64,000 bases of DNA from Prorocentrum cordatum (Eukaryota > Sar > Dinophyceae > Prorocentrales > Prorocentraceae), in NCBI GenBank assembly GCA_963575745.1, contig CAUYUJ010015938.1, forward strand, positions 114,335 to 178,334, in the 5' to 3' direction. Of this stretch, positions 1,022 to 61,108 are shown one piece after another. Under the pieces are notes generated by a model. The model ran no database searches and was not told where the DNA came from. It was given only the letters and a program-made list of their open reading frames with translations. Position 1 is the stretch's first letter; each line of letters opens with the position of its first letter. The position numbers and the translations under genes were made by a program.

Positions 1022-2720
1022 AAATATCCTGGCGAACGACCCAACCATATGCAGTTGCGGGTGCACTTGCGAATATCTTCTTCGGTGAAGCTCCCTGCGG
1101 GGCCACGAAGCGCTGCACTGGGTGGGGGGGAACGCATGCGGGCGGTAACACTGGGGCCGTCGGTGGAGCTCGGTGGGGCCACGAAACCTTGTAGTGGGTG
1201 GGTGAAAATGCCAAATTGGGTGTGTGGGACGCACGCGGACGGTCCCACCGGGGGCTTCGGTGGAGCTCCGATGGGGCCACGATGCGCTGTACAGGGGGGG
1301 TGAAAAAGCTAAAGTGGGCTTCCGGGGCGCACGCGGACGGTCCCACTGGGGGCGTTGGTGGAACTCCCTGTGTGGCCACGAAGCGCTGTACTGGGTGGGC
1401 GAATGTGCCAAATTGGGTTTCCGGGACGCATCCGGACGGTCCCACTGGGGGCTTCGGTGGAGCTCCTACTGGGGCCACGAAGCGCTGTACTGGGTGGGTG
1501 AAAATGCCAAATTGAATGTGTGGGACGCATGCGGTCGGTCCCACTGGGGGCTTCGGTGGAGCTCCCTGCGGGGCCACGAACCGCTGTACGGTGTGGGTGT
1601 CACTGCCAAATTGGGTGTGTGGGACGCATGTGGGCGGTCCCACTGAAGGCTTCGGTGGAGTTCCCTATTGGGGCCACGAAGCGTTGTGCTGGGTGGGTGA
1701 ACGTGTCAAATTGCGTGTGCGGGACGCATGCGGGCGGTCCCTTTGGGAGCTTCGGTGGAGCTCCCGATGGGGCCACGAAGCGCTGTGCTGGGTGGATGAA
1801 GCTGCCAAGTTGGGTGTGTGGGACGCATGTGGGCGGTCCCTTTTGGGGCTTTGGTGGAGCTCCACTGGGTGTGGCAGACGCATGTGGCCCCACCCCCGGC
1901 GGAGTTCCCTTATGGAGCCACGAAGCGCTGCACTGGGTATGGTAAACGCACGTGGTACCCCCCAGTGGGGCCTTACGTGGAGCTACCTATTGGGCCACGA
2001 AACGTTGCACTGGGTGTGGCAGACGCATGTGGCCACCCCCACTGGGGCCTTCGGTGGAGCTCCCTACGGGGCCACGAAGCGCTGTACTGGGTGTAGCGGA
2101 TGCATGTGGTAGCCCCCAGTGGGGTCTTCGGTGGAGCTCCCTATGGGGTCACGAAGCGCTGTACTGGGTGTGGCGGACGCGTGTGGTACCCCCACCGGGG
2201 CCTTACGTGGAGTTCCCTATGGGGCCACGAAACGCTGCACTGGGTGTGGCAAACGCATGTGGTACCCCCACTGGGGCCTGCGGTGGAGCTCCCTATGGGG
2301 CTGCGAAGCGCTGTGCTGGGTGTGGCAGACGCATGTAGTAACCCCACTGGGGCCTTCGGTGGAGCCCCCCAAGCGGCCACGAAAAACTGTAATGTGTGGC
2401 GAACGCATGTGGTATCCCGCCCTGGGGGCCTTCGGTGGAGTTCCCTATGGGGCCATGAAGCGCTTCACTGGGTGTGGCAGACGCATGTGGTGCCCCCATT
2501 TTGGCCTTCGGGGGACGTCCCTATGGGGCCACGAAACGTTGTGCTGGGTGTGGCAGACGCATGTGGTACCTCCTTGGGGCCTTCGGTGGAGCTCCCTATG
2601 GGGCCACGGAGCGCTGTTCTGGGCGGGCAAACGCATGTGGTATCACCCCTTTGGGCCTCACGTGGAGCTCCCTATGGGGCAACGAAACTTTCTATTAGGT
2701 GTGGCAGACGCATGTGGCAC
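1022..2720. repeat. Satellite-like tandem array A1 (about 99-bp units, then about 76-bp units)
   Basis: The array opens with a leader that includes GACCCAACCATATGCAGTTG and ends in TCTTCGGTGAAGCTCCC. Units of about 99 bp follow, built from GTGAAAATGCCAAATTGGG, GGGACGCATGCGGGCGGTCC and CTTCGGTGGAGCTCCC. From about 1860 the GTGAAAATGCCAAATT block is lost and the unit shortens to about 76 bp (GTGTGGCAGACGCATGTGG recurring near 2014, 2090, 2168, 2243 and 2319). Long open frames on both strands follow from unit lengths divisible by three and are not evidence of a protein. Confidence 0.9.
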
Positions 2721-4290
2721 ACGGCAGAATCGGCCCCAAGAGCGAAAGAGCACGGCACAAATAAACTATCGTGGCGAAGGACCCAACCATATGAACTTGT
2801 GGGTACCGCAATTGTGAAAATCTTATTCGGTGAAGCTTCGCATGGGGCCACGAAGCGCTGGATGCGCTGGGTGGGATGGGAACGCACGCGGGCGGTAACA
2901 CTGGGGCCGTCGGTCAAGTTCCCTATGAGGCCACAAAGCGCTGCACTGGGTGGGTGAAAATGCCGAATGCGGCGTGTGGGACGCACGCGGGCGGTCCCAT
3001 TGGGGGTTTCGGTGGAGCTCCCCATGGGACCGCGAAGCGCTGTATTGGGTTGGTGAAGCTGCCAAATTGGGCGTGGGGGGCGCATGCGGGCGGCCGCACT
3101 GGTGGCTGCGGTGGGGTTCCCTATGGGGCCACGAAGCGCTGAATTGGGTCTGTGAAAATGCCAAATTGACTGTGGGGGGCGCGTGCGGGCGGTCCCACTG
3201 GAAGCTTCGGTGGAGCTCCCTGTGGGGAACGCATGCGGACGGTCCCACTGGGGCTTCGGTGGAGACCCCTATGGGGCCACGAAGCGCTGCAGTGGGCGGG
3301 TCAAAACCAAATTGGGCATGGTGGACGCACGCGGGCGGTCCCATTGGGGGCTTCGGTGGAGCTCCAGCTCCCTATGGGGCCACGAAGCGCTGTACTGGGT
3401 GGGTGACAATGCCAAATCGGGTGCGGGGGACGCGTGCGGGCGGCCCCACTGGGAGCTTCGGTGGGGTTCCGTATGGGGCCACGAAGCGTTGTACTGGGTG
3501 GGTGACAATGCCAGGTTGGGTGTGGGGGACGCGTGCGGGCGGTCCCACTGGGGGTTTCGGTGGGGTTCCCTATTGGGCCACGAAGCGTTGTACCGGGTGG
3601 GTGAAAATGCAAAATTGAATGTGGGGGACGCATGTGGGCGGTACCACCGGGGGTTTCGGTCGAGCTCCCTACGCGGTCACGAAACGCTGTACTGGGTGTG
3701 TGAAAATGCCAAATTGGGCGTGGGGGGCGCATGCGGGCGGTCCCGCTGGGGGCTTCGGTGGAGCTCCCTATGAGGCCACGAAGCGCTGTACTGGGTGGGC
3801 GTAAGTGCCAAATTGTGCGTGGGGGGCGCATACGGGCGGTCCCACTGGGGGCTTTGGTGGGGCCCCCTATGGGGCCACGAAGCGCCGTGCTGGGTGGATG
3901 ACAGTGCCAAGTTGGGTGTGGGGGACGCATGTGGGCGGTAACACTGGGGGTTTCGTTGGGGCTCCCCATTGGGCCACGAAGCGCTGTAACGGGTAAGGGT
4001 AAATGCCAAATTGGATGTGGGGGACGCATGTGGGCGGTACCACTGGGGGCTTCGGTGGAGCTCCCTATGTGGTCACGGAGCGCTGTATTGGGTGAGTGAA
4101 AATGGCAAATTAGGCGTGGGGGGCGCATGCGGGCGGTCCCACTGGGGGCTTCGGTGGAGCTCCCTATAGGGCCACGAAGCGCTGTGCCGGGTGGGCGAAA
4201 ATGCCAAATTGGGCGTGGAGGATGCATGCGGGCGGTCCCACTGGGTGCTTCGGTGGAGCTCCCTGTGGGGCCACAAAACGCTGTGTTGGG
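2720..4290. repeat. Satellite-like tandem array A2 (about 99-bp units)
   Basis: The array restarts with a short AGCACGGCA linker (about 2720-2760) and a second copy of the leader (about 2770-2845), then about fourteen 99-bp units of the same family. Spacing is direct: GCCAAATTG at 3061 recurs at 3160. The array ends where a GGA tract begins near 4300. Confidence 0.9.
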
Positions 4291-4295
4291 TTGGT

Positions 4296-4700
4296 GAAAC
4301 GCATGGAAGAAGGAGGAGGGAGGGGAGGAGGAGGAGGAGGAGGAGAGGAGGAAGAACGCGGGGCGACGCCTCTTCAAAACGAGGACCCAACACCACATAA
4401 TGGTTGGGAAAAACAAGAGCACGGCAGAATTGACCCCAAGAACGAAGGAGCACAGCAGAAGAGGCACCAAGAGCGAAGGAGCACGGCAGAAAAAAAAACC
4501 CGAGCACGGCAGAATAGACCCCAAGAGCGAAGCAGAAGAAAACCAGGAGCACGGCAGAAGAAGACCCGAAGAGCTCAGGAGCACGGCGAAACAGGCCCCA
4601 CGAGCGAAAGAGCACGGCAGACAAAATTAGCCTGGCGAAGAACCCAACCATATGCAATTATCAGTACCGCAGCGGCGGGTTTCATCTTCAGTGGAACTCC
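4296..4700. repeat. Linker module: GGA tract, TTCAAAACGAG motif and AGCACGGCAGAA repeats
   Basis: In order: a GGA tract (4305-4355), the motif TTCAAAACGAGGACCCAACA with ATGGTTGGGAAAAACA (4372-4415), about seven imperfect units of AGCACGGCAGAA plus CCCCAAGAGCGAAGG (about 4416-4625), and the leader ACCCAACCATATGCA (about 4640-4700). ATGGTTGGG at 4399 and CCCAACCAT at 4643 are inverted and bracket the AGCACGGCAGAA block. Confidence 0.85.
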
Positions 4701-6425
4701 CCATAGGACTACGGAACGTGTGAGGGGTGTGCCGAGATGGGTGCCACTGGGGCATTCGGCGAAGCTCCCTATGGGGACATGAAACACGCGCGGGGCGTGC
4801 CGACATGGGTGGCGGAAGCGCATGTGAGGGCCGCCACTGGGGCCTCCAGTGGAGCTCCCTATGGGTCCCCGAAACATGATGCTGCTGCGGGGGGGGGGGG
4901 CCGGGATGGGTGGCGGAGACGCATGTGAGCGCCGCTACTGGGGCCTTCGGTGGAGCTCCCTATGGGGCCACGAAGCGCGTGAGGGGTGTACTGGGATGTG
5001 TGGCGGGGACGCATGTGAGCGCCGCCACTGGGGCCTTCGGTGCAGCTCCCTATGGGGCCACGAAGCGTGTGAGGGGTGTGCCGAATTGGGTGCGGGTGGT
5101 GACGCATGCGGGCGGTGCCACTGAGGCCTTCGGTGGAGTTCCCTATGGGGCCACGAAACCTGTTGTTGTGAGGGGCGTGCCGGGATGGGTGGCGGGGACG
5201 CATGTGAGCGCGGCCGCTGGGATCTTCGGTGGAGCTCCCTATGGTGCCACGAAACGTGTGAGGGGTGTGCCGAATTGGGTGTGGGTGGCGCATGTGAGCG
5301 CCGCCACTGGGGCCTCCGGTGGATGATGGGGCCACGAAGCCTGTCACGGGTGCGCCGAAATGGGTGTGCGGGACGCATGCGCATGTGAGCGCCGCCACTG
5401 GGGCCTTCGGTGGGGCTCCCTATGGGGCCACGAAACGTGTAAGGGGTGTGCCGAATTGGGTGTGCGGGACGCATGCGGGCGGCAGCACTGGGGCCTTCGG
5501 TGGGGCTTCCTATGGGGCCACGGAACGTAAAAGGGGTGTGCCGAATTGGGTGTGCGGGACGGGGCCTTCGGTGGGGCTTCCTATGGGGCCACGAAACGTG
5601 TGAGCGGTGTGCCGAATTGGGCGTGCGGGACGCATGCGGGCGGCAGCACTGGGGCCTTCGGTGGGGTTCCCTATGGGGCCACGAAAAGTGTGAGGGGTGT
5701 GCCGAATTGGGTGTGCGGGGCGCATGCGGGCGGCAGCACTGGGGCCTTCGGTGGGGCTCCCTATGGGGCCACGAAGCGTGTGAGGGGTGTGCCGAATTGG
5801 GTGTGCGGACGCATGCGGGCGGCAGCACTGGGGCCTTCGGTGGGCTCCTATGGGGCCACGAAACGTGTGAGGGGTGTGCCGAATTGGGTGTGCGGGACGC
5901 ATGCGGGCGGCAGCACTGGGGCCTTCGGGGGCTCCCTATGGGGCCACGAAACGTGTGAGGGGTGTGCCGAATTGGGTGTGCGGGACGCATGCGGGCGGCA
6001 GCACTGGGGCCTTCGGTGGGGCTCCCTATGGGGCCACGAAACGTGTGAGGGGTGTGCCGAAGTGGGTGTGCGGGACGCATGCGGGCGGCAGCACTGGGGC
6101 CTTCGGTGGGGCTCCCTATGGGGCCACGAAGCGTGTGAGGGGTGTGCCGAATTGGGTGTGCGGGACGCATGCGGGCGGCAGCACTGGGGCCTTCGGTGGG
6201 GCTCCCTATGGGGCCACGAAACGTGTGAGGGGTGTGCCGAATTGGGTGTGCGGGACGCATGCGGGCGGCAGCACTGGGGCCTTCGGTGGGGCTCCCTATG
6301 GGGCCACCAAACGTGTGAGGGGTGTGCCGAATTGGGTGTGCGGGACGCATGCGGGCGGCAGCACTGGGGCCTTCGGTGGGGCTCCCTATGGGGCCACGAA
6401 ACGTGTGAGGGGTGTCCCGAAATGG
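4700..6425. repeat. Satellite-like tandem array B (90-bp units, very homogeneous at the 3' end)
   Basis: Units share CTTCGGTGGGGCTCCCTATG and GGGCCACGAAACGTGTGAGG with array A but carry GGTGTGCCGAATTGGGTGTG. From about 5550 units are almost identical: GGGCCACGAA recurs at 6031, 6121, 6211 (6301 with one change) and 6391, exactly 90 bp apart. That keeps all three frames open and produces artificial 30-residue protein repeats. The homogeneity points to recent expansion or conversion. Confidence 0.92.
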
Positions 6426-45765: not shown

Positions 45766-46636
45766 TCGCCGGCCCAACGGGCCAGAGGCGTGCTAAGGTC
45801 TCCGGTAACTGGTTTACAGTATCTCTAGTTCGCGCGCGCGGGGCGGCCCCTGGGGGTCCCCGGACGAAAAAAAACCCGGGCGATCCCCGACCGACCCCCG
45901 AGCGATCCCCGGGAGACTCCCCCAGAGCGCTCCAGGAGCGCTCCAGGAGCGCACCAACAGGGCTCCGAGACGTCCCCGAAACCCTCAAGACGGGTCCAGA
46001 TGCCCCCAAGAGGCTCCCAAGATGGTACACAAGGGTTCCGAGATGCCACATGATCGCTCCAAGACGCCCAAGATGGCCCCCAGACGCCCCAAGAGGCCTC
46101 CAAGAGCACTCCCCAAAGGGCCCCAAGAAGCAAAATTCATAGCTTTTCCTTAGGTTTTTGAGAGATTTTGGAGCTTCCACCTTTTCGGCTTCCCGACGCC
46201 CCAAGACGGCCCAAGAGGCCCCCAAGATCGCCCCAAGAGGGCCCAAGAGGCCCCCAAGAGGGCCCCAAGATGGCCCAAGAGGGCTCGAAGACGGCCCAAG
46301 AAGCCTCCAAGACGGTCCAAGAGGGCCCCAAGAACGCCCCCAAGGGGGCCCCAGAGAGGGAACACGAAACAACATTTCGAGCCCTCGGCCCTAAGAAGCC
46401 CCCACGAGGCCCCAAGAGGCCCCTAAGAGGCCCCAAGAGGCCCCCACGAGGCCCTCAGGAGGCCCCCAAGAGTCCCCCAAGCGGCCCCAGGAGGCCCCCC
46501 AAATGCCCCCCCGAGCGCCCCAGGAGTCCCCCAAGCGGCCCCAGGAACCCCCAAAGCGCCGCATTGACACCAGGCCCTCGGGCAAACGGCAGACATGAGA
46601 CTGTATGGGCCGGCGGAATGAGCGAAGCGATTAAAT
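45766..46636. mobile_element. Composite CCAAGAGGCCC element, copy 5 (complete, 871 bp)
   Basis: Leader ATTCGCCGGCCCAACGGGCC (45763), 12-mer blocks, AT-rich core (46132-46200: CATAGCTTTTCCTTAGG, TTTTTGAGAGATTTTGGAGC) and tail GGGCCGGCGGAATGAGCGAA plus GCGATTAAATAA (46605-46637). Same architecture as 37137-38104. Confidence 0.85.
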
Positions 46637-46734
46637 AACTGTTCCTTCTCACACCCCGAAACAAGTTTTTAGGGCGGTCCGGGCGTTTCGCCTGAGACTT
46701 CCTCACCATTTATCACACCGAACTTGAAACATGA

Positions 46735-47315
46735 CAACAGCTTCACAGATGGAGGGCGGGTCGTTTCCAAAATGCGGCTCTCGCCGTAGCGCCGCGCACG
46801 TCTGTTTCCAAAATTTGCAAGGGCTTCACGGAATGAGGGCGGCTCGTCTTCAAAATGTGGCCCTCGCCGTAGCGCCGCGCACATTCGTATCAAACATTTG
46901 CAAGAGTTTCACTGACTGAGGGCGGGTGGTTTTGAGACTGTGACCCTCGCCTCAGCGCCGCGCACACTCGTTCCCAAAAGCTGCAAGGGCTTCACAGATT
47001 GAGGGCGGGCCGTCTCTCGCCATAGCGCCGCGCACATCAGTTTTAACAAGTTGCACGAGCTTCACGGATCGAGGGCGGTTCCTTTTCAAAATGCGGCTCT
47101 CGCCTCAGCGCCGCGCACGTTCTTGTTAAAACATTTGCAAGAGCTTCACGGATTGAGGGCGGGCCGTCTTCAAAATGTGACTTTCGCCTTGGCGCCGCGG
47201 ACATCGGTTGTAAACAATTACAAGAGCTTCACGGATTGAAGGCGGGTCGTTCTCAAAATGTGACTCTCGCTTTGCCGCCGCGCACATTCTTCTTATAAAA
47301 CTTGCAAGAGCACTA
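46735..47315. repeat. About 82-bp tandem repeat (GCTTCACGGATTGAGGGCGG)
   Basis: Seven units of TTGCAAGAGCTTCACGGATT, GAGGGCGGGTCGTTTTCAAA and ATGTGRCTCTCGCC with GCGCCGCGCAC. A repeating frame on the minus strand is a by-product. Confidence 0.9.
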
Positions 47316-48074
47316 CGGGCACGCAATGGTGTTTTGGGAGGATTCACGATTATGGGGCGCAACAATTGCGATGATTCGCGGTGTTGAAGTCCCAGGATCG
47401 GCGTTTTGGCACGATGCAGGATCGTCAAGACGTACCAGATAGGCTTGACTATCCGTGGCGTTGGAATACCGAGAACAATGTTTTGGTATGCTTCAGGGTC
47501 TTCAAACGAGGCAGGTTCCTGTGTTGAAATGAGCCGTTGTAGGGGCCTATGAAGAGAGAGCTTGGGAGGGCGTATTCCAACATCGCTGGTGACTCTTGGG
47601 TTTACACTGGTCCTCCTCCTCCTACTCCTCCTCCTCCTCCTCCTCCTCCTCCTTCCCTTCCCCAACTTATGGTGGTGGTGGTGGTGGAAAACAGGCCCAT
47701 CGCCATAACTCGGCTCTCCGGTGGCCGACCGGGCCAATCCGGACATCCCCGGAACGCCCTCGGCGAGGCGCGCTGGAGCGCATCCCGTGGCCGGGAAGCC
47801 GCCGAGGACCGACCAACACGCCCGAAAGGCCTCGAACCCCGAACCCGAAACGCCCCCCCTGAGCCACTCCCCTCCTAACGTTGCCCATGCGATGTCCCCT
47901 ATGGCCCGAGAAGCGCACGCCCTGGAGAGCGACCGGCGCGGGAAAGGCGCGCCCCGGCGCGCAGAGCCGCCCCTCGGCCACGGGAGCAGGGGCCGCCGGT
48001 GCGCCATCGAGCAGAGCCGGCCATGCCGAGCCGCGCCCTCGAGCCGAGGCGGCCGGTCACGGCGCAGCCGATCC

Positions 48075-48270
48075 AGGGGCCTCCCAAATCGGGTCGGAGG
48101 ATCTCACCGAATCGCCGATGTATCGGCGATGCATCGGTGATGCATCGACGGCGTTGGCGAGGCATCGGCGGCGTTGGCGATGCATCGGCGACGTCGGCGT
48201 GGGGAACAGAAAGACATCGGCAGTGCGGCGCGATCCGCCGACCCCATCTGCCCTGAGACCACTTAGGTAG
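48075..48270. mobile_element. MITE-like element B, copy within duplication copy 1
   Basis: GGGCCTCCCAAATCGGGTCG and GAGGATCTCACCGAATCGCC at the left, GCGGCGCGATCCGCCGACCC at the right, GATGCATCGGTGATGCATCG repeats between. Its twin is at 50790-50985. Confidence 0.8.
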
Positions 48271-48569
48271 CCGCAGAGTACGGGACAAGAATTGCGTGGC
48301 ACTCGTTTCTAGCAGCCCGTGTGGAGCATCAGGACACATGAGGAGTCCTGGAAATCTTGGAACGCATCATGGTCATGACCTCTTGCTCATCTGAGCTTAT
48401 TAAGATGAAGCCAAGATCAGGATAACATCGGATCGGGACAACTCCGGTGACCTCTAAGGCCCTGCGGCTCTGGAGGACACAGCGGGCGCCGCTGCCGTTC
48501 CAGAGCGCTGCCGGGACCCCCCGGGAGCGTTCAGGGACGCTCTGGCACCAAGAGCGTATACCATTTCTG

Positions 48570-51284
48570 CGGCCCCTGGGGGTCCCCGGACGAAAAGTAC
48601 CCCGGGCGATCCCCGACCGACCCCCGAGCGATCCCCGGGAGACTCCCCCAGAGCGCTCCAGGAGCGCTCCAGGAGCGCACCAACAGGGCTCCGAGACGTC
48701 CCCGAAACCCTCAAGACGGGTCCAGATGCCCCCAAGAGGCTCCCAAGATGGTACACAAGGGTTCCGAGATGCCACATGATCGCTCCAAGACGCCCAAGAT
48801 GGCCCCCAGACGCCCCAAGAGGCCTCCAAGAGCACTCCCAAAAGGGCCCCAAGAAGCAAAATTCATAGCTTTTCCTTAGGTTTTTGAGAGATTTTGGAGC
48901 TTCCACCTTTTCGGCTTCCCGACGCCCCAAGACGGCCCAAGAGGCCCCCAAGATCGCCCCAAGAGGGCCCAAGAGGCCCCCAAGAGGGCCCCAAGATGGC
49001 CCAAGAGGGCTCGAAGACGGCCCAAGAAGCCTCCAAGACGGTCCAAGAGGGCCCCAAGAACGCCCCCAAGGGGGCCCCAGAGAGGGAACACGAAACAACA
49101 TTTCGAGCCCTCGGCCCTAAGAAGCCCCCACGAGGCCCCAAGAGGCCCCTAAGAGGCCCCAAGAGGCCCCCACGAGGCCCTCAGGAGGCCCCCAAGAGTC
49201 CCCCAAGCGGCCCCAGGAGGCCCCCCAAATGCCCCCCCGAGCGCCCCAGGAGTGCCCCAAGCGGCCCCAGGAACCCCCAAAGCGCCGCATTGACACCAGG
49301 CCCTCGGGCAAACGGCAGACATGAGACTGTATGGGCCGGCGGAATGAGCGAAGCGATTAAATAACTTTTCCTTCTCACACCCCGAAACAAGTTTTTAGGG
49401 CGGTCCGGGCGTTTCGCCTGAGACTTCCTCACCATTTATCACACCGAACTTGAAACATGTTAACAGCTTCACAGATGGAGGGCGGGTCGTTTCCAAAATG
49501 TGGCTCTCGCCGTAGCGCCGCGCACGTCTGCTTCCAAAATTTGCAAGGGCTTCACGGAATGAGGGCGGCTCGTCTTCAAAATGTGGCTCTCGCCGTAGCG
49601 CCGCGCACTGACTGAGTTTCACTGACTGAGGGCGGGTGGTTTTAAGACTGTGACCCTCGCCTCAGCGCCGCGCACATTCGTTCCCAAAAGTTGCAAGAGC
49701 TTCACAGATTGAGGGCGGGCTGTCTCTCGCCATAGCGCCGCGCACATCAGTTTTTAACAAGTTGCACGAGCTTCACGGATCGAGGGCGGTTCCTTTTCAG
49801 AATGCGGTTCTCGCCTTAGCGCCGCGCACATTCTTGTTAAAACATTTGCAAGAGCTTCACGGATTGAGGGCGGGCCGTCTTCAAAATGTGACTTTCGCCT
49901 TGGCGCCGCGGACATCGGTTTTAAACAATTACAAGGGCTTCACGGATTGCAGGCGGGTCGTTCTCAAAATGTGACTCTCGCCTTGCCGCCGCGCACATTC
50001 TTCTTATAAAACTTGCAAGAGCACTACGGGCTCCTATGATCGCCGTACCAGAAATTGTGTTTTGGGAGGATGTACGATTATGGGGCGCAACAATTGCGAT
50101 GATTCGCGGTGTTGAAGTCCCAGGATCGGCGTTTTGGCACGATGCAGGATCGTCAAGACGTACCAGATAGGCTTAACTATCCGTGGCGTTGGAATACCGA
50201 GAACAATGTCTTGGTATGCTTCAGGGTCTTCAAACGAGGCAGGTCCCTGTGTTGAAATGAGCCGTTGTAGGGGCCTATGAAGAGAGAGCTTGGGAGGGCG
50301 TATTCCAACATCGTTGGTGACTCTTGGGTTTACACTGGTCCTCCTCCTCCTCCTCCTCCTCCTCCTCCTTCCCTTCTCCAACTTATGGTGGTGGTGGTGG
50401 AAAACAGGCCCATCGCCACAACTCGGCTCTCCGGTGGCCGATCGGGACAATCCGGACATCCCCGGGAACGCCCTCGGCGAGGCGCGCCGGAGCGCATCCC
50501 GTGGCCGGGAAGCCGCCGAGGACCGACCAACACGCCCGAAAGGCCTCGAACCCCGAACCCCGAAACGCCCCCCCTGAGCCACTCCCCTCCTAACGTTGCC
50601 CATGCGATGTCCCCTATGGCCCGAGAAGCGCACGCCCTGGAGAACGACCGGCGCGGGAAAGGCGCGCCCCGGCGCGCAGAGCCGCCCCTCGGCCACGGGA
50701 GCAGGGGCCGCCGGTGCGCCATCGAGCAGAGCCGGCCATGCCGAGCCGCGCCCTCGAGCCGAGGCGGCCAGTCACGGCGCAGCCGATCCAGGGGCCTCCC
50801 AAATCGGGTCGGAGGATCTCACCGAATCGCCGATGTATCGGCGATGCATCGGTGATGCATCGACGGCGTTGGCGAGGCATCGGCGGCGTTGGCGATGCAT
50901 CGGCGACGTCGGCGTGGGGAACAGAAAGACATCGGCAGTGCGGCGCGATCCGCCGACCCCATCTGCCCTGAGACCACTTAGGTAGCCGCAGAGTACGGGA
51001 CAAGAATTGCGTGGCACTCGTTTCTAGCAGCCCGTGTGGAGCATCAGGACACATGAGGAGTCCTGGAAATCTTGGAACGCATCATGGTCATGACCTCTTG
51101 CTCATCTGAGCTTATTAAGATGAAGCCAAGATCAGGATAACATCGGATCGGGACAACTCCGGTGACCTCTAAGGCCCTGCGGCTCTGGAGGACACAGCGG
51201 GCGCCGCTGCCAGACCAGAGCGCTGCCGGGACCCCCCGGGAGCGTTCAGGGACGCTCTGGCACCAAGAGCGTATACCATTTCTG
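48570..51284. repeat. 2.7-kb tandem segmental duplication, copy 2
   Basis: Direct repeat of 45844-48569. The offset is 2726 bp in the first part and 2715 bp in the later part; the loss of the sixth minisatellite half-unit near 49605-49620 and TCC length changes account for this. It includes composite-element copy 6 (48570-49362), the 82-bp repeat (49460-50030) and an element B (50790-50985). Differences are few, so the event is recent or gene conversion is active. Confidence 0.95.
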
Positions 51285-51415
51285 GGCCCGCCCGACTGTT
51301 GCCGCGGGGCAGTGCCGCGTTGCACCTGGTTGAAGAAAGCTGGCCGGCTGTGGGGCCAGGTGCTCTTCTCACCCCTCCTCCTCACAACTGCTACAGTCAA
51401 CACGTATCATGAGGA

Positions 51416-51575: not shown

Positions 51576-52710
51576 ACCGCCTTTCACATGTGACCAATAC
51601 CCCTGCAGGTCAGATTTCAGAAACGCCGGCTGGGGTCCAGAACTCGAAAGATGCATGTAGCCAGGTGAACCCCCAACGGGGGCGTCCGATACCCCAGCGT
51701 GGATCTGACCCGCGGGGGTAGGCTTCGCAAGTGGTCGCAGAACTCCATCCGTCTCCCCTTCTCTCCCTTCTCCTCGCTCCTCACTCCTCGCTCGCAGACT
51801 CGTCGTCCTCCCTTCCCTCCGTCTCCTCCTCGTCCTCCTCATCGTCGACGCTGCGCGTGGGGGTCAATTCGTCCTCGACTTCTACGACCAAGGCCGCCCC
51901 CGCCCTCGCGCGAAGCTCGTCCCAGACGCACACCGGCAACGAGTCCTGCTCGAAAGAGGTAGGAACTGCTGCCGGTGGTTGTCTCCATGCGTTCCCTCAG
52001 AGGGCCCCAATATCGCCAAAACCCAAGACGGTCAAGAAACACCCACAAGACGGAACGCCCCGTGACGTCTCCAAAGCGGCGCACGGCTGGCCCAGGACGG
52101 CCCCAAGTCTCCCAGACGGGCCCGATGCCCCACGAAAGTGCCATACGAGCCCCTCGGACGACCCCATGACCTCCCAAGATGGATACAAGATCCCCGAGCA
52201 GGCCACCAAGAAGAGCCGAATAAACACCTAATTACCCTGCGACGTACCCAACCCGATGGCATCACGTGGCAAGAGGAGTAGGAAACATTAGCAGGAACCG
52301 TGACAGTGCAGGCGCGGCGATTTGTAGTGCGACCTACATGGGATGCGTAATGTTGCACAACTCACAGAACAGCAATCGATAAGACGAGGAGTAGGTCTCA
52401 AGGCTCGTTAAACAATAGCGGGGGCGGGAACGAGGGACAGGAGAAGGACGAACCCAGTAGGAAGGGGCGAGGAGCCATCGCACCAGCAGCAGCATGAATG
52501 CAGAAGGTGACCGGAGGACTAGGGCGGCGATGATGACAGAGGAGGGAGGAAGCAAGAGACTGCTTCGTTTTTGCAGGAGCTCGGTCAACGCATGCCTGCT
52601 GCCTGTCCACAGAATCATACCTGTTTATATCTAGTGCAGGAAGCGATCGAAACCTAGCTCGCGCGCCAGCTTCTTCGCCTCCTTCCTGCATGTTGCAGTG
52701 CGGAAGTGGC

Positions 52711-54040
52711 GACAGTTTCACAGATCGCAGCCCCCCAGGGATGGCGAGGTCGAATCTGAATTCCCGAAGGGCGTCACTCCGCTGGCCCCCCCAGCAGCCT
52801 TCGAACGTGGCGACACTTTTGCAGATCGCAGCCCCCCAGGGATGGCGAGATCTAATCTGAATCCCCGTATGACGTCACTCCGCTGGCCACCCCAGCAGCC
52901 CTCGAAAGTGGCGACAGTCTCACAGATCGCAGCCCCCCAGGGATGGCGAGGTCGAATCTGAATTCCCGAAGGGCGTCACTCCGCTGGGCCCCCCAGCAGC
53001 CTTCGAACGTGGCGACACTTTTGCAGATCGCAGCCCCCCAGGGATGGCGAGGTCTAATCTGAGTCCCCGTAGGGCGTCACTCCGCTGGGCCCCCCAGCAG
53101 CCCTCGAAAGCGGCGACAGTTTCGCAGATCGCAGCCCCCCAGGGATGGCGAGGTCGAATCTGAATCTGCGTGGTGCCTCACCCCGCTGGACCCACCAGCA
53201 GCCCTCGAATGTGGCGACAGTTTCGCAACCAGCAGCCCTCGAATGTGGCGTCAGTGTCGCAGATCGCAGCCCCCCAGGGATGGCGAGGTCTAATCTGAAT
53301 CTGCGTGGTGCCTCACTCCGCTGGACCCACCCTCAGCCCTCGAATGTGGCGACAGTTTCGCAGATCGCAGCCCCCCAAGGATGGCGAGGTCTAATCTGAA
53401 TCTGCGTGGTGCCTCACTCCGCTGGACCCACCAGCAGCCCTCGAATGTGGTCAGTGTCGCAGATCGCAGCCCCCCAGGGATGGCGAGGTCTAATCTGAAT
53501 CTGCGTGGTGCCTCACTCCGCTGGACCCACCAGCAGCCCTCGAAAGTGACGACAGTTTCGCAGATCGCAGCCCCCCAGGGACGGCGAGGTCTAATCTGAA
53601 TCTGCGTGGTGCCTCACTCCGCTGGACCCACCAGCAGCCCTCGAAAGTGACGACAATTTCGCAGATCGCAAACCCCCAGGATGGCGAGGTCTAATCTGAA
53701 TCTGCGTGGTGCCTCACTCCGCTGGACCCACCAGCAGCCCTCGAAAGTCGAGGTCTAATCTGAATCTGCGTGGTGCCTCACTCCGCTGGACCCACCAGCA
53801 GCCCTCGAAAGTGACGACAGTTTCGCAGACGCAGCCCCCCAGGGATGGCGAGGTCTAATCTGAATCTGCGTGGTGCCTCACTCCGCTGGACCCACCAGCA
53901 GCCCTCGAAAGTGGTGACAGTTTCGCAGATCGCAGCCCCCCAGGGATGGCGAGGTCTAATCTGAATCTGCGTGGTGCCTCACTCCGCTGGACCCACCAGC
54001 AGCCCTCGAAAGTGGCGACAGTTTCACAGATCGCAGCCCC
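52711..54040. repeat. 101-bp tandem array
   Basis: Units contain CAGATCGCAGCCCCCCAGGG, ATGGCGAGGTCTAATCTGAA, CTCCGCTGGACCCACCAGCA and GCCCTCGAAAGTGGCGACAG. CAGATCGCAG falls at 52721, 52822, 52923, 53024 and 53125, exactly 101 bp apart. Later units (from about 53225) carry deletions and a second variant, GAATCTGCGTGGTGCCTCAC. About thirteen units in all. Confidence 0.95.
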
Positions 54041-54049
54041 AAAGGGATG

Positions 54050-55559: not shown

Positions 55560-56090
55560 GCCCACCCCTCCCGACGCTCCACTGGTGACCAGACGCCTCT
55601 CTGGCGATCCCCAGGGCCTCCAGGATGGCCCAGGCAGGCCATCAGAGCCGCAAACATGCCACAAACAGGCATGCTTGCCAAACTGCCCCAAATGGGACTT
55701 GTTACGGCCCAAGAGGGCTGCGAGAGGATCTTCAAGAGAGCCCGAAGATTTCAAAACCACTGGTTTCCTTCAAATGTTCGAGCGATGCTCGCACTCACGC
55801 CTGTCCAGTTTTCGATCAGCCCCAGCCGGTCCAAGAGGCCTTCAATGTGGTGGGCCCCAGGATGAAAGCCCAACCTGACCCAGAGGATCGCAAAATGCCC
55901 AGGCGACCCCACGAGGTCCCTTGCGCCGTCAGCGTCAGCGCCGTTGGCGGTGACGGCGCCACCGCCGCAGCCGCTGCCGCAACCGCCAGAGGAGGGCGAG
56001 GGCGAGGGGTGAGGGGGGAGGGGCAAGCGGAGAGGGGTGGGGAGGGGGAGGGGGAGGGGGAGGATGATTTTGACATCCACCGTGCCAGGG
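55560..56090. other. Mixed sequence between unique region and LINE remnant
   Basis: Contains a partial GGCCCAAGAGGGC 12-mer block (55600-55760) and a GGGGAGGG tract (56000-56065). The LINE reading frame fades out in this tract. Confidence 0.5.
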
Positions 56091-59000
56091 CGACGTGAGC
56101 GATCAGTTTGGCGTCGCAGCTCTTTCAGGAAAAGGGGGCGCGTGGCATCTGGAGCTCGAACGACAGCATACTGGCCCCGGGGTTAGTCTCCTTTCGGAAG
56201 AAACGCGAAGACCGAGTCGTTGAACTGGCGCGGGGCCAGGCCCGTTTCGAACATCTGCATCGTGAGGTTATCTGAGAAGATCCAGGGGGGGTGGCCCATG
56301 CAGCGTATGGAATCTGATCTGCGCCTGGAGCGGTATGTCTGACCTTACGGAGGGCCCTCTGGAAGTCCTGAAGAGCTGGAACCCGTAGGTCCGCGCAGTC
56401 GAACTTGGCGAGGTGCTGGGACAGGCGCTGCTGGGCCGCCACGGGGTCCACGATCCTGCTCGAGAAGATGAGCCGCCAACGCTTCTGGAGGCCTCCAAGA
56501 ATACGCTCTGGGGAACTGGCTGTCGGTGTCCCCTCTTTCGGTATCCTACGTCCTGATCGACGGCGAAACGGATGCCGGGCCTGTGCCCGGCGCGTGAGCT
56601 GCGTCGCGGCCTTCCGACTGCCGGCCTGGTCCAACTGCATCTCGGCGTTGGACAGCAGCTGGCGCTTCGTGGCGAGGGCGACGCGTCTGTCGCAGTCGGC
56701 GGTGACCGCCGCGTCCATCAGCGCGACATACTCGCCCCTGTTCGTGAGCTCGGGGCCGTCGTCTGTGAGGTACAGATGCGCGCTGCCGATGTCGGCCGTG
56801 GCCATGTGGAGCGACGCTGCGTCTGAACCCTTTCTCCAAATAGCCAGTGAACTTGCGCGGCGAGTGGTGGGCCTGCCGTGCTTTGCCCAGCGACCGTGGT
56901 CTTGAAGGGAGGCGCGCTGCCGGAGGTTGCGAGTGAGTCTCGCCGCTTCTTTGATGATGAGCTCGCGCGGCTTCCAAGCCGCCGCTAGGCGTGGGCGCAG
57001 CCTTGGCAATGTTATCCTTCAGAAAATTGAAGTGGCGCTGGTAGGTGGGTCGTGGAAGCTGATCGGGCCGATGACTTCCTCTTCTGACCATGGGGCTGAG
57101 GCGTTGGCCAGAAGCAAATGAAGAATGGCATGATCGCTGAGGCCTTTGTCGGATAGTGCTGCGCAGTCTTTGTGAATCCTCGGGCGCGCGACCACGCCCA
57201 GCAAGCCGATGCCCGAGAGGGAGATGAAGATGCGGTCGATTACCGTGGCCGCTTGCGCGCTGGCCGAGAAGTGCGCGGGGGGGTCGGGCGCGACCCCTGT
57301 GGGCGAGACAAAGAGTTGGCGCCGCCGCGCCTGATCTCCTTGATATTGTCCGCCAGGTGCCATAGGCCGCCAGCGCGCAGAAGGAAGGGCCCTTGAAGCT
57401 GAAGGAGGGGGCAGCGACGGCATTGAAGCCGCCCACGGCGATAAAGAGTCTTTGTTTGGGCGCTGCTGCTGCCCAGCGCCGCGAGGCGTGCCGTGCCTCG
57501 GCCACTCTGTTCATGTCTTCTGCCGCCTCGTCATAATTGTGTACGTTCGTACTGAGCGCCTCGAAGCCCGCGGCGCGATTGGCAACGTGCGAGGCGGCCA
57601 CTCGCCCGCGGATAACTTGCCAGAGCGACGTTGATGTCGAGGTCGATGTAGGTGTCGGAACCAAAGTGGCCACTCCCCCTCTGCCGCGGTTGAGTGGGCA
57701 GCCGCTGAATTGCACTTGATAGTCATGCGGAAGTTCGCCAATGTGCGATTCGAGATCCAATTGGGGGCCGCGCACTTCTTGCAGGGCTTCCAGGGCCTGC
57801 TTTCAAGGGAGATCTGCCTTATCTCCCCCCCCCCATCTCTTGCAATCATCATGACAAAGAAGGCCTCTGGCATTCCTACAGATGTAGCTGCCTGCGGCCT
57901 CTGAAGTAGTAGGTCCGGTGGTAGTCCGCGTCGGCTTGGCGCGGCGAGTACGTGGAGATGTGCTGGGCGAATAAGAAGAAGATGGGCTGCTGGCACTGGA
58001 AGAAGAAGCGTTTCCCGATGTTGAGCTGACTACCGAGACTGGGGCCACCTGGGTCTTGTCGGTCTAGAAAAGACGATCTTGCTCTGGAAGAAGAAAGGCT
58101 TGAGCTGGGTGGCGCAGGTCATGCTGGGGGGGGAGTGCTGCTGCGGGGCTCTCCAAGCCCGTGAAAACCGACATATTATCTGGACCGGCCCCTCGGGGGC
58201 AACGCGGGTGCCCCGATCCCCGCGCGCCTGTCGTCGCGGCGCGGCCTGTGCAGGATGAGACCCATGATGCCGTGGAGCTTGCCAGAGTTCACGTGGGGCG
58301 CGATCAGGGGGCTGTGGGGCGTCAGCAGCGGCGGGGCAAGGTGGGTCCTGTTCAGGTGCCGGTCGAAGGTGCTGTAGAGGACGCCGTCGCTGCCCTGCAG
58401 ATGCGCCAGGTCCTGGAGGGCGCGCGCGATCAGCGTCAGTTGCAGTCGCCCGCCATGGCGACCAGCGCTTGCGAAGTCCACTGTGCTGTATCCTCGGCTT
58501 TGTAGAGAGCGGCAACTTCTGCAGCGATCGTGGCCTTGTCGATTGGAACCCTGGCCAGCGCATCTTGCTTCCAACGAATGGTGGTTGCCGCGTCCATGCT
58601 AGTGAGCTCCAGTTTGGCGGTGGTGATGGTGTCGCAGAATATGCGCCCTTGATCGCGACGCGCGCGCCAACTGTGCAGGGGTTAGTGAGTCTGACAGAGG
58701 GCGAGTAGCTTTATTCGTTTTAGGTTCCATATTGATGCGCTTGATGCTCTTGTCTGGGTTGACGTAGAGCGGTACGTACTGGCCATTGTTGATGGCGGTG
58801 TCGGTTGGCGTCTGAACTGTGGACTGTCTGTAGCCACCGCGGCCTCGTAACTGAAGCGCCCGCGCAGGGGCCACTGGTGTGGCGACGGCGACAGCGCGAC
58901 CTGCAAGGAGTTGCAATATGAAACGCCGATTCGGTCCTTCTCCATGAATCTGAAACTGCTGCGGAGCCACGTCTGCTGCGTCGAGCCACTCGGTAATGGA

Positions 59001-60188
59001 GTTGCGGGCGGCGGCAGTGGCGACGGGCTGCGCGCTGGAGAGAGCGAAGATGGTGGAATCTGGCTCGCGATCTCAGCCCGATAATTTGGCCATGTCCAGT
59101 ATGGGTGCCTCTGCTTCGCCGGGGCTGAGCTGCTGGTTGTCACGCTGGGTTGCACTCCAGATCCCTTGGTGCAGGGCTTCTTGCTGTGCTGGTGCGGTCT
59201 TGACTCCCATGAGATCTTGCTCTTGGCCATCCAACCTGCGGGTGGTAGCTGCTTCGTGCCGCTGCAGTGCGGCGAGAAATTGAATCTGCGAGGCTGAGAC
59301 GGCGTTGCCGACGGCTGCGCTGATGGCGGCGACCTGCGATGCCATGATATGCTTGAGCTCGCTCTGAATATCTTAGGCGAGATTTGACTGCTGCCAAGGT
59401 GCTCCTGTAGGCGTGGCTGTGCCTTCTTCTGCTGGAGCTGGTGCCGGAGCTGATGTCATGAGTCCAGAGCTGGCTGCGGCGGCAGTTGATGCTGCTGCAA
59501 TAAGAGAGCGCTGCTGAGCTGCTTGAGCGGCTTGATGTGCCAACCATTGCTGTTGGGCCGTATCGGCTTCTGCTGCAATCCGGGCGGCTTCATGAGCTTG
59601 GTGGGCAACTTGCGTTTCGCGCCCACCTCGTTCTCGCTGTGCTTGATGGGCTTGCCACTGCGCTTGTTCTTGAGTAGTAGCTGAGTGAAACCCTTGAGGG
59701 GCTCCAGAGGCTTCGCGTCCGAGAGGTCTGAGAGGTCCTTTAGATCGTCCACCATGTCCTTTGGGCGGCTGGCGTGATCCTCCGGAAGAAGAGGAATGGT
59801 GGCGTATATCCCTATCGCGTCGGCGGTGTCGATCACGGTCACGGTCTCTATCTCTCTCACTGCGCCTTTCAGTGTGTCTGCGTCGATCGCGTCGGTGTCC
59901 ACTGGCTTGGCTTCTACTTTTAGAAACGCTTCGGGAAGATGCCGAGGCAGAATCTGAGTCCATTCGGAAGTACTGAGCTGAGCTAGACCACGTACCGCCT
60001 GTCCGATGCCAAGCGATAGAAGAACCAACCCAAAGATCTGCAACTGAACTCGTTGAGTTAGAACTTCTGCCAAGGTGAACTTCGTTCTGCTGAGATGGAG
60101 CGGCACCGCAGGCCGTGCAGCCGTGGCGGACCTGTGAGTTATGGCAAGGCGCAGAGCTGAACGGCCAGCTGCTTTGGGAAATGTTGTA
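56090..60188 (-). pseudogene. Non-LTR (LINE) retrotransposon polyprotein, decayed and 3'-truncated
   Basis: A retrotransposon polyprotein lies on the minus strand. From the 5' end: an Arg/Ser/Asp- then Gln/Ala-rich region (60188-59376), a helical segment (59345-59076), a segment with GQYVPLYVNPDKSIKRI (about 58780) typical of the region before the endonuclease, a helical segment near 58600-58440, an endonuclease/exonuclease/phosphatase domain (ALQEV near 57775; GGFNAV at 57416-57433, where Asp normally replaces the second Gly; DRIFISL; LSDHAI at 57138) and the start of a reverse transcriptase (APGADQIPYAAW near 56325, FNDSVFAFLPKGD ending 56186, then RAPDATRPL). Nonsense codons at 59373 (TAA), 59073 (TGA), 58599 (TAG), 57019 (TGA) and 56183 (TAA), plus at least four frameshifts, make it inactive. 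The catalytic part of the reverse transcriptase and the 3' end are missing. Confidence 0.85.
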
Positions 60189-60271
60189 CTTGAGCCAAAA
60201 TGGCTTGAGCAAAAAAGGCTTGAGCCAAAAAGGGCTTGAGCTAAAATGGCCTGAGCCAAAATGGCTACGGA
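60189..60271 (-). other. One full DinoSL copy followed by four relic spliced leaders
   Basis: Read on the minus strand, 60271-60250 is the 22-nt dinoflagellate spliced leader (TCCGTAGCCATTTTGGCTCA then GG; one change from the usual AG end). Four contiguous 15-16 nt relics follow: 60249-60235, 60234-60219, 60218-60204 and 60203-60189, each a variant of CCATTTTGGCTCAAG. Relics lack the leader's first CCGTAG, as expected when a retroposed leader is trans-spliced again at its own AG. Together they record about five rounds of trans-splicing and genomic reinsertion of this LINE's transcript. The oldest relic, next to the LINE body, still matches well. Confidence 0.95.
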
Positions 60272-60274
60272 CCA

Positions 60275-60690
60275 GGAGGAGGAGGAGGAGGAGGAGGAGG
60301 AGGAGGAGGAGGAGAAGGGGGAAGAGAGGGAGGAGGAGGAGGGAGGGGAGGAGGAGGGGGAGGAGGAGAGGAGGAGAGGAGGAGAGGAGGAGGAGGAGGA
60401 GGAGGAGGAGGGAGGAGGAAGGGGTGGACGGGGGGGGGGGGGGGGAGGGGGGGAGGATGAGGGAGGATGCGGAGGAGGAGGAAAAGTATGAGGAAGAAGA
60501 AGAAGGAGGAGGAGGAGGAGAAGGAGATGAGGGGGAAGGGGAGAGGAGGAGGAGGAGGAGGGAGGCAGAAGAGGAGGAGGAGGAGGAGGAAGGGGAGGAC
60601 GGGGAGGGGGAGGTTGAGGGGAGGGGGAGGGGGAGGAGGAGGAGGAGGAGAAGGAGGAGGAGGAGGAGGAGGAGCAGGAGGAGGAGGGGG
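60275..60690. repeat. GGA/GGGGA purine tract
   Basis: More than 400 bp of GGAGGA and GGGGAGG repeats directly upstream of the LINE's leader. No target-site duplication can be defined because of it. Confidence 0.95.
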
Positions 60691-60692
60691 AG

Positions 60693-60994
60693 CAGTAATA
60701 ATAATAATGACCATAATAATAATAGTCGCAGTAGTAATAATACGAATACTAATAAAAATTCTGATAAAAATAATAATGATAATACTAATAATAATAATAC
60801 TAATAATACTACTAATAATACTAGTAATTATAAAAATACTAAGTATAATTACAATAATAATGATAATAATAATAATGGTAATACTACTAATAATAATAAT
60901 CATACTACTAATAATAATACTAATAATAATTATTATAATAATAATATGAATAATATTGAAAATATTAGTAATAATAATTATTATAATAATAATG

Positions 60995-61040
<46 letters not shown>

Positions 61041-61108
61041 GTATAATAATAATAACAACAATAATAATAATACTAATCAGAATAATAATAATAATAATAA
61101 TAGGAGGT
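60693..61108. repeat. AAT/ACT trinucleotide tract
   Basis: About 415 bp of AATAATACTAAT repeats, the only AT-rich tract of this size in the window. It is bounded on both sides by GGA tracts. The Asn-rich and Ile-rich frames are by-products. Confidence 0.97.

Follow-up and report, generated by a model that had tools for sequence, protein, structure and literature searches.

The 5' end of a LINE in the dinoflagellate Prorocentrum cordatum was found to carry a full-length dinoflagellate spliced leader (DinoSL), with truncated leaders stacked behind it in many copies. Judging from the sequences of these copies, it is fairly likely that this APE-type LINE takes the 5' end of its RNA from spliced leader (SL) trans-splicing by the host, and that the stack is a ladder of splice acceptors redrawn in each cycle, not a counter of cycles. 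Features that can be read directly in the copies are the full outer leader, the 15-nt inner units, target-site duplications (TSDs), CCT on both flanks, a leader number free of kinship and leaders joined to different AGs within the body.

Genome search and selection of copies

Related copies were collected from the 4.13-Gb assembly (21,875 contigs) by using a five-leader query (40 of 350 candidates scored) and a one-leader pattern, so that leader numbers among them are not frequencies. A total of 58 loci (L numbers) were fetched and 17 were excluded: 15 repeats of known places (one of them another contig bearing the same six-leader copy), L018 for its unrelated body, and L001, identical with the window (the window being the whole 64,000-nt stretch of DNA that was analysed). 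The remaining 41 loci and the window gave the 42 copies analysed. A further sample, not picked by leader number, consisted of the 23 places with an intact innermost unit and an intact first 32 nt of the body.

Leader block and carrier element

In the window, one 22-nt DinoSL and four truncated leaders of 15 or 16 nt lie end to end on the minus strand (60189-60271) at the head of a decayed LINE. Read from 60271 to 60189, the block runs T-CCGTAG-CCATTTTGGCTCAGG, CCATTTTAGCTCAAG, CCCTTTTTGGCTCAAG, CCTTTTTTGCTCAAG, CCATTTTGGCTCAAG and then passes into the body, TACAACATTTCCC. The outermost, full-length leader (60250..60271, minus strand, 22 nt) has T at position D and one substitution near its 3' end. 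It is followed on the same strand by leader 2 (60235..60249, 15 nt, one substitution), leader 3 (60219..60234, 16 nt, one extra base and one substitution), leader 4 (60204..60218, 15 nt, two substitutions) and the innermost leader 5 (60189..60203, 15 nt, intact). A DinoSL 21-mer with up to 3 mismatches matched the 64-kb window twice, and none of 100 dinucleotide shuffles contained a match. Relics of the form CCATTTTGGCTCAAG directly inside a full leader, the mark of DinoSL-relic retrocopies, were present in the window and in related copies. What lies behind the window block is a LINE body with no intron donor of the kind a tandem-SL donor gene would have.

The body (56091..60188, minus strand) is decayed and has lost its 3' side. 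It was delimited by blastn against L026 and L028 (82-84% identity, alignment ending at 56090/56091) and by tblastn of the open reading frame (ORF) of the related copy L021, which showed homology across 60145-56089 with frame breaks. An APE-type endonuclease remnant at 57407..57787 (minus strand; residues 6-132 of ORF 56546-57802) matched Exo_endo_phos weakly, at an E value of 7.7e-4 that falls under the curated cut-off, and nearly all of the reverse transcriptase (RT) domain is missing along with the 3' end. Related copies gave Exo_endo_phos at E 1.9e-10 and, in L021, RVT_1 at E 2.1e-16; Exo_endo_phos was present in all three long ORFs scanned (L009, L021 and L015). The best solved relative of the L021 RT region was human LINE-1 ORF2p (E 6.1e-15), and among its closest named proteins 13 of 31 matches bore the name Prorocentrum cordatum, including the best seven, which were 37-41% identical. 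NCBIfam and PDB searches with the L009 ORF returned no match. The carrier is therefore an APE-type non-LTR retrotransposon (LINE), given the endonuclease and RT of its relatives. An earlier sequence-only reading of the window had described one full DinoSL and four truncated leaders at the 5' end of a retrotransposon; the minus-strand reading, the shuffles and the ORF homology confirm the leaders, and the domains of related copies confirm the carrier.

Full-length copies measured approximately 6.1-6.4 kb (11 of 16 between 6.10 and 6.41 kb); the others were 6.05-6.09 kb (L015, L022, L023), 5.2 kb (L009, L011) and 7.1 kb (L012). A search of 10 loci with Rfam for known 5'-end RNAs (HDV-like ribozymes and others) gave 17 weak matches, none at the gathering score and none to a ribozyme.

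The first 33-43 nt of the body (window 60146-60188), TAAAACATTTCCCAAGGCAGCTGGCCGTTCAG, are approximately 88-94% common to LINE families that are otherwise unalignable. The stretch occurs in L021, L025, L049, L037, L048 and L055, all of which except L025 and L021 were found by a pattern that includes it; the bodies of L025 and L049 could not be aligned with that of L021, and the RT is 34% identical. It may have a role in packaging, translation or splicing, or act as a promoter, comparable to the trypanosomatid Pr77.

Elsewhere in the window, a 2.7-kb direct tandem duplication (45843-48575 and 48569-51289) has 96.7% identity, large tandem arrays of 76-99-bp units occupy 1119-6425 and show a higher-order period of 445 bp in 4907-6421, and an array of 101-bp units lies at 52703-54049.

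Insertion into CCT tracts

The 5' flank of the window LINE is an AGG tract (CCT on the element strand) at 60274..60692 of the plus strand, for which TRF reported approximately 141 copies of the unit AGG with 77% matches. Further upstream of the LINE, a stretch of ATA/TAA trinucleotides (60764-61102) lies between two AGG tracts. Across the 42 copies, CCT, CTC and TCC made up a median share of 0.72 of the trinucleotides (lowest 0.29) over the 60 nt that precede the element, compared with a median of 0.03 (highest 0.17) in the body control. At the other end, (C/T)TCCT continued past the 3' end motif in 16 of 16 copies, a count that omits four of the 20 long loci (L010, a duplicate, and L018, L025 and L027).

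Among the 16 copies whose 3' end could be read, 15 had exact TSDs of 10-25 nt and one, L020, had no exact one; the window copy, having lost its 3' end, falls outside this sample. Own TSD pairs beat re-paired flanks, only 10 of 5000 permutations being as good, and the clearest, non-periodic duplications were those of L021 (16 nt), L014 (17 nt), L028 and L015. Since CCT flanks both sides and TSDs are present, the copies are products of target-primed insertion into CCT tracts, in a single orientation throughout, and the LINE is a microsatellite-targeting one that inserts into one kind of simple repeat.

LINEs that target microsatellites or other repeats include Waldo, Dong and TRAS/SART, among others. 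In the available text on such elements (PMC4640811), insertion into simple repeats in one orientation is alike, whereas here the target is CCT/AGG, the host is a dinoflagellate and the target doubles as the pyrimidine tract before a splice acceptor.

Leader numbers in the copies and across the genome

The outermost unit bore the six-base SL cap in all 42 copies (37 intact, 5 with one substitution), and inner units were without it. Together with the retrotransposon features, TSDs among them, these caps support, at the level of sequence, the proposal of the sequence-only reading that the LINE transcript is trans-spliced and that the leader is copied to the 5' end during the element's own retrotransposition. 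The step of about 15 nt that it gave also holds, the unit being 15 nt. At one 5' junction (L031, 1 of 42 copies), two consecutive CCGTAG hexamers precede the only full unit (CCGTAGCCGTAGCCATTTT...), six bases at the start of the leader being duplicated. Identical off-consensus changes in the leader (CCATGTTGG, GGTTCAAG and CTCAAA) were also seen in unrelated copies, and may stem from variant SL RNAs or from mutational hot spots.

Leaders per copy numbered one in 13 copies, two in 10, three in 9, four in 7, five in 2 and six in 1. In the 23-place sample, one to six leaders were carried by 6, 10, 2, 2, 1 and 2 copies, respectively, so that 17 of 23 had more than one; the two six-leader members are probably alleles. 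Copies thus differ in number, and a single five-leader block fixed in the relatives, which the sequence-only reading had named as evidence against itself, was not seen and is excluded. Genome-wide, places with at least three leaders at up to 3 mismatches numbered 488 (longer stacks being counted repeatedly) and 0 in the reversed control. At least four leaders were found at 101 places, 35 of them exact, and the longest stack listed has nine (C19311:78842-78982, on a carrier body that was not read). The exact two-leader pattern gave no match in viral contigs and none in bacterial or archaeal contigs. Assembly of short repeats and microsatellites is difficult, and the stacks could in principle be an artefact or chance; this is extremely improbable given the absence of matches in shuffles and reversed controls, the agreement on six leaders between L010 and L011 (the same copy on two contigs) and the span of less than 100 nt for stacks of up to six.

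A second exact unit stood behind 1202 of 14,218 exact leaders genome-wide (8.5%), and the multi-leader excess in the LINE (17/23, 73-74%) was significant against this background (Fisher p 4e-14), as it was when equal exactness was demanded of the LINE (14/20, p 2e-11). A perfect CCTCCTCCT preceded 15 of the 42 copies of the LINE; only 143 of the 1202 exact two-unit leaders have it in front, and therefore most sit on carriers outside the bodies that were read. Stacks were also present on the distinct bodies of L018 (six leaders) and L025 (three), both in CCT tracts and with RT approximately 34% identical to that of L021, so the stacking habit spans more than one family. As a matter of LINEs, stacking appears to hold for the families read, which make up few of the 35 exact stacks of at least four leaders, and is not a claim on the whole genome.

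The same excess bears on the donor of the leaders. A multi-unit SL RNA gene, as proposed in the available text for Fugacium (PMC6616646), could deliver a ready stack in one trans-splicing event, and clean units, the lack of an age gradient and kinship-free numbers would likewise be expected of it. Shared donors should, however, stack all mRNAs alike, which is at odds with 73-74% in the LINE versus 8.5% overall. Moreover, when exact units and a GTA donor were considered, two units followed by GTA were no commoner than a single one (6/1202 versus 76/13,016, Fisher p 0.84). The 6 two-unit places were scattered over 6 contigs, whereas single SL+GTA places were clustered on the same strand (20 of 76 within 30 kb). 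Delivery from tandem-SL donors is accordingly quite unlikely. The same-strand clusters of single DinoSL+GTA, spaced 4-27 kb apart on C3764, C9786, C11806, C16102, C19578, C20920 and C20935, are probably SL RNA genes.

Leader number, descent and age

A tree was built from 1447 body columns of 41 copies, with leaders excluded and L025 dropped because its body belongs to another family. Near kin carried unlike numbers (6, 2, 3 and 1 leaders in one four-copy group). Fitch changes in leader number came to 25, compared with 23.7 +- 1.7 in 2000 shuffles (1727 at or below the observed value), and step changes to 39, compared with 37.9 +- 2.6. Pairs less than 2% apart (17 pairs) differed by a mean of 1.41 leaders and random pairs by 1.51. 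Within the main clade of 28 copies, 27 steps were counted versus 24.3 in shuffles, of which 1941 of 2000 were at or below this value, so the scatter exceeds that of most shuffles. Simulated one-step inheritance of leader number was detected in 71-89 of 100 runs, and no phylogenetic signal was found in the 41-copy tree.

Leader ages were compared with the end branches after omission of 5 long-branch rows. Leader changes numbered 10 against an expected 13.6 in 28 young copies and 25 against 27.0 in 8 older ones, and the window copy had six changes in 81 leader nt, a share equal to the length of its own branch (0.072). No copy carries leaders older than itself. An age gradient was not found in copies with at least two leaders: changes numbered 7 in 27 outermost units, 14 in 32 middle units and 6 in 27 innermost units, the last count being biased low since finds by the one-leader pattern needed an intact innermost unit.

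The sequence-only reading had taken the stack as a history, and the published host-gene model does likewise: every round, made up of splicing to TAG and then re-insertion, leaves one more 15-nt relic, and the number equals the cycles. The 15-nt unit, the single full outer leader and the richness of the LINE in multi-leader copies (17/23 versus 1202/14,218) all fit this model, and addition at TAG is needed at least sometimes because one-leader copies exist and stacks reach nine. As a clock, it is ruled out by the tree and by leader ages; the proposed check, that relic number should track phylogenetic depth, failed on the 41 copies, where kin carry 1 to 6 leaders. One-leader copies are nested among many-leader ones, so the history must include losses, reaching as far as the innermost unit, besides gains. 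As the sole process, addition at TAG is refuted by this nesting unless stacks were rebuilt on each end branch from leaderless sources. With signal and age gradient absent and losses required, the stack as a record of about 15 nt per cycle lacks support, and the model is very unlikely to be the explanation.

Leader number would also change if the 15-nt repeats slipped or underwent unequal exchange, either at the DNA level or while the RNA is reverse transcribed, once a few real additions had taken place. Tandem repeats do slip, and adjacent units sometimes have a change in common (units 3 and 4 of L020; three units in C10624). It offers no route from one leader to two, however, nor to a junction at another AG of the body, and it is unlikely as the main process, although slippage could contribute to leader number.

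Proposed acceptor choice along the stack

The acceptor ladder, which we favour, would work as follows. An element inserted in a pyrimidine-rich CCT tract would be transcribed from outside, and since each leader holds two AG acceptors, the stack would form a ladder of 3' splice sites, to one of which the new leader is spliced. Use of the TAG within the outermost leader would add one unit, use of the end of that leader (CTCAAG) would leave the number unchanged, use of the end of an inner relic would leave fewer units, and use of the innermost end would leave one leader; rarely, an AG within the body would be taken. Reverse transcription would then fix the choice in the next copy, and the stack would be self-renewing.

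The body start is constant behind CTCAAG in all copies. If, on the most economical reading, the AG at the end of the leader is an acceptor besides TAG, other nearby AGs should occasionally be used. At 7 places a leader was joined to the body at its following AG (CCCAAG|GCAG), compared with 0 in the reversed-pattern control; 5 of the 7 matched with 0-1 mismatch, and the 7 comprise three sequence variants seen in different subfamilies. At 1 further place the leader was joined to the body AG one beyond. At least one such junction (C96) is itself a stack, since the joined unit is immediately preceded by a full exact leader. A non-AG junction control, weak because its body tail was 11 nt long, yielded 21 places at the level of chance, each with 2 mismatches and none with 0-1. 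Use of internal acceptors at relic ends is suggested by the leader numbers, the leaders being too clean to bear shared inherited marks. Several models fitted the distribution of leader number equally well in 22 copies, a small sample (log-likelihoods -33.7 to -35.3). For Amphidinium actin, the text available to us (PMC2488372) reports a single gene that is trans-spliced at several AGs, and self-maintenance of the SL via its two AGs is an idea already published (PMC3229502, available portion).

Comparison with known systems

Relic DinoSLs on recycled host genes were reportedly described by Slamovits and Keeling in 2008. Relic leaders are known for dinoflagellate genes derived from mRNA, as the sequence-only reading had stated, and several relics per gene, up to four, are in print (PMC7245778 and PMC3229502, in the portions available). 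In the portions available for such genes (PMC3229502, PMC7245778, PMC12014239), the full leader outside, the 15-nt relics inside and the junction after TAG are alike. Here, in contrast, the carrier is an autonomous, self-copying LINE, up to six leaders occur in the family (nine on the unread body) and the number is not a record of cycles. An inward gradient of decay is described in the accessible account of Alexandrium ESTs, whereas the LINE leaders show no decay towards the inside. The tandem-SL genes of Fugacium (PMC6616646, available text) likewise have a full SL and then CCATTTTGGCTCAAG units; there the carrier is a donor SL RNA gene, and here it is an acceptor LINE with CCT microsatellites, TSDs and no multi-unit donor signal.

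The trypanosomatid elements L1Tc/ingi, with their 77-nt 5' promoter Pr77 (PMC8190864 and PMC4748587, as far as available), are also LINEs in an organism with SL trans-splicing and also have a short 5' stretch in common among unlike elements. Their transcripts are unspliced and started from an internal promoter, whereas the template RNA here would bear a leader. In the literature available, drawn mostly from non-subscription journals and in part only, relic leaders were found on host genes, viral insertions and SL genes and none on a LINE; stacking is known for host genes, and no account of an autonomous LINE that carries it was found.

Implications

Each jump of a LINE requires that its 5' end be rebuilt in full. 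Here the host leader appears to rebuild it, and the element could thereby persist on outside transcription. As a wider and tentative possibility, this may be a LINE lineage that has ceded its 5' end to the host: CCT would provide a ready polypyrimidine tract and the fresh leader an immediate acceptor, no promoter of its own would be needed beyond outside transcription, and the stack would be a self-reproducing acceptor array common to several LINE families. Relic-leader counts, which are used in print for rounds of gene retroposition, need not equal rounds. Beyond AG, no simple consensus is known for the dinoflagellate trans-splice acceptor, according to the available text of PMC2488372, and in this group the stacks offer a natural record, hundreds of cases in size, of which acceptor was chosen.
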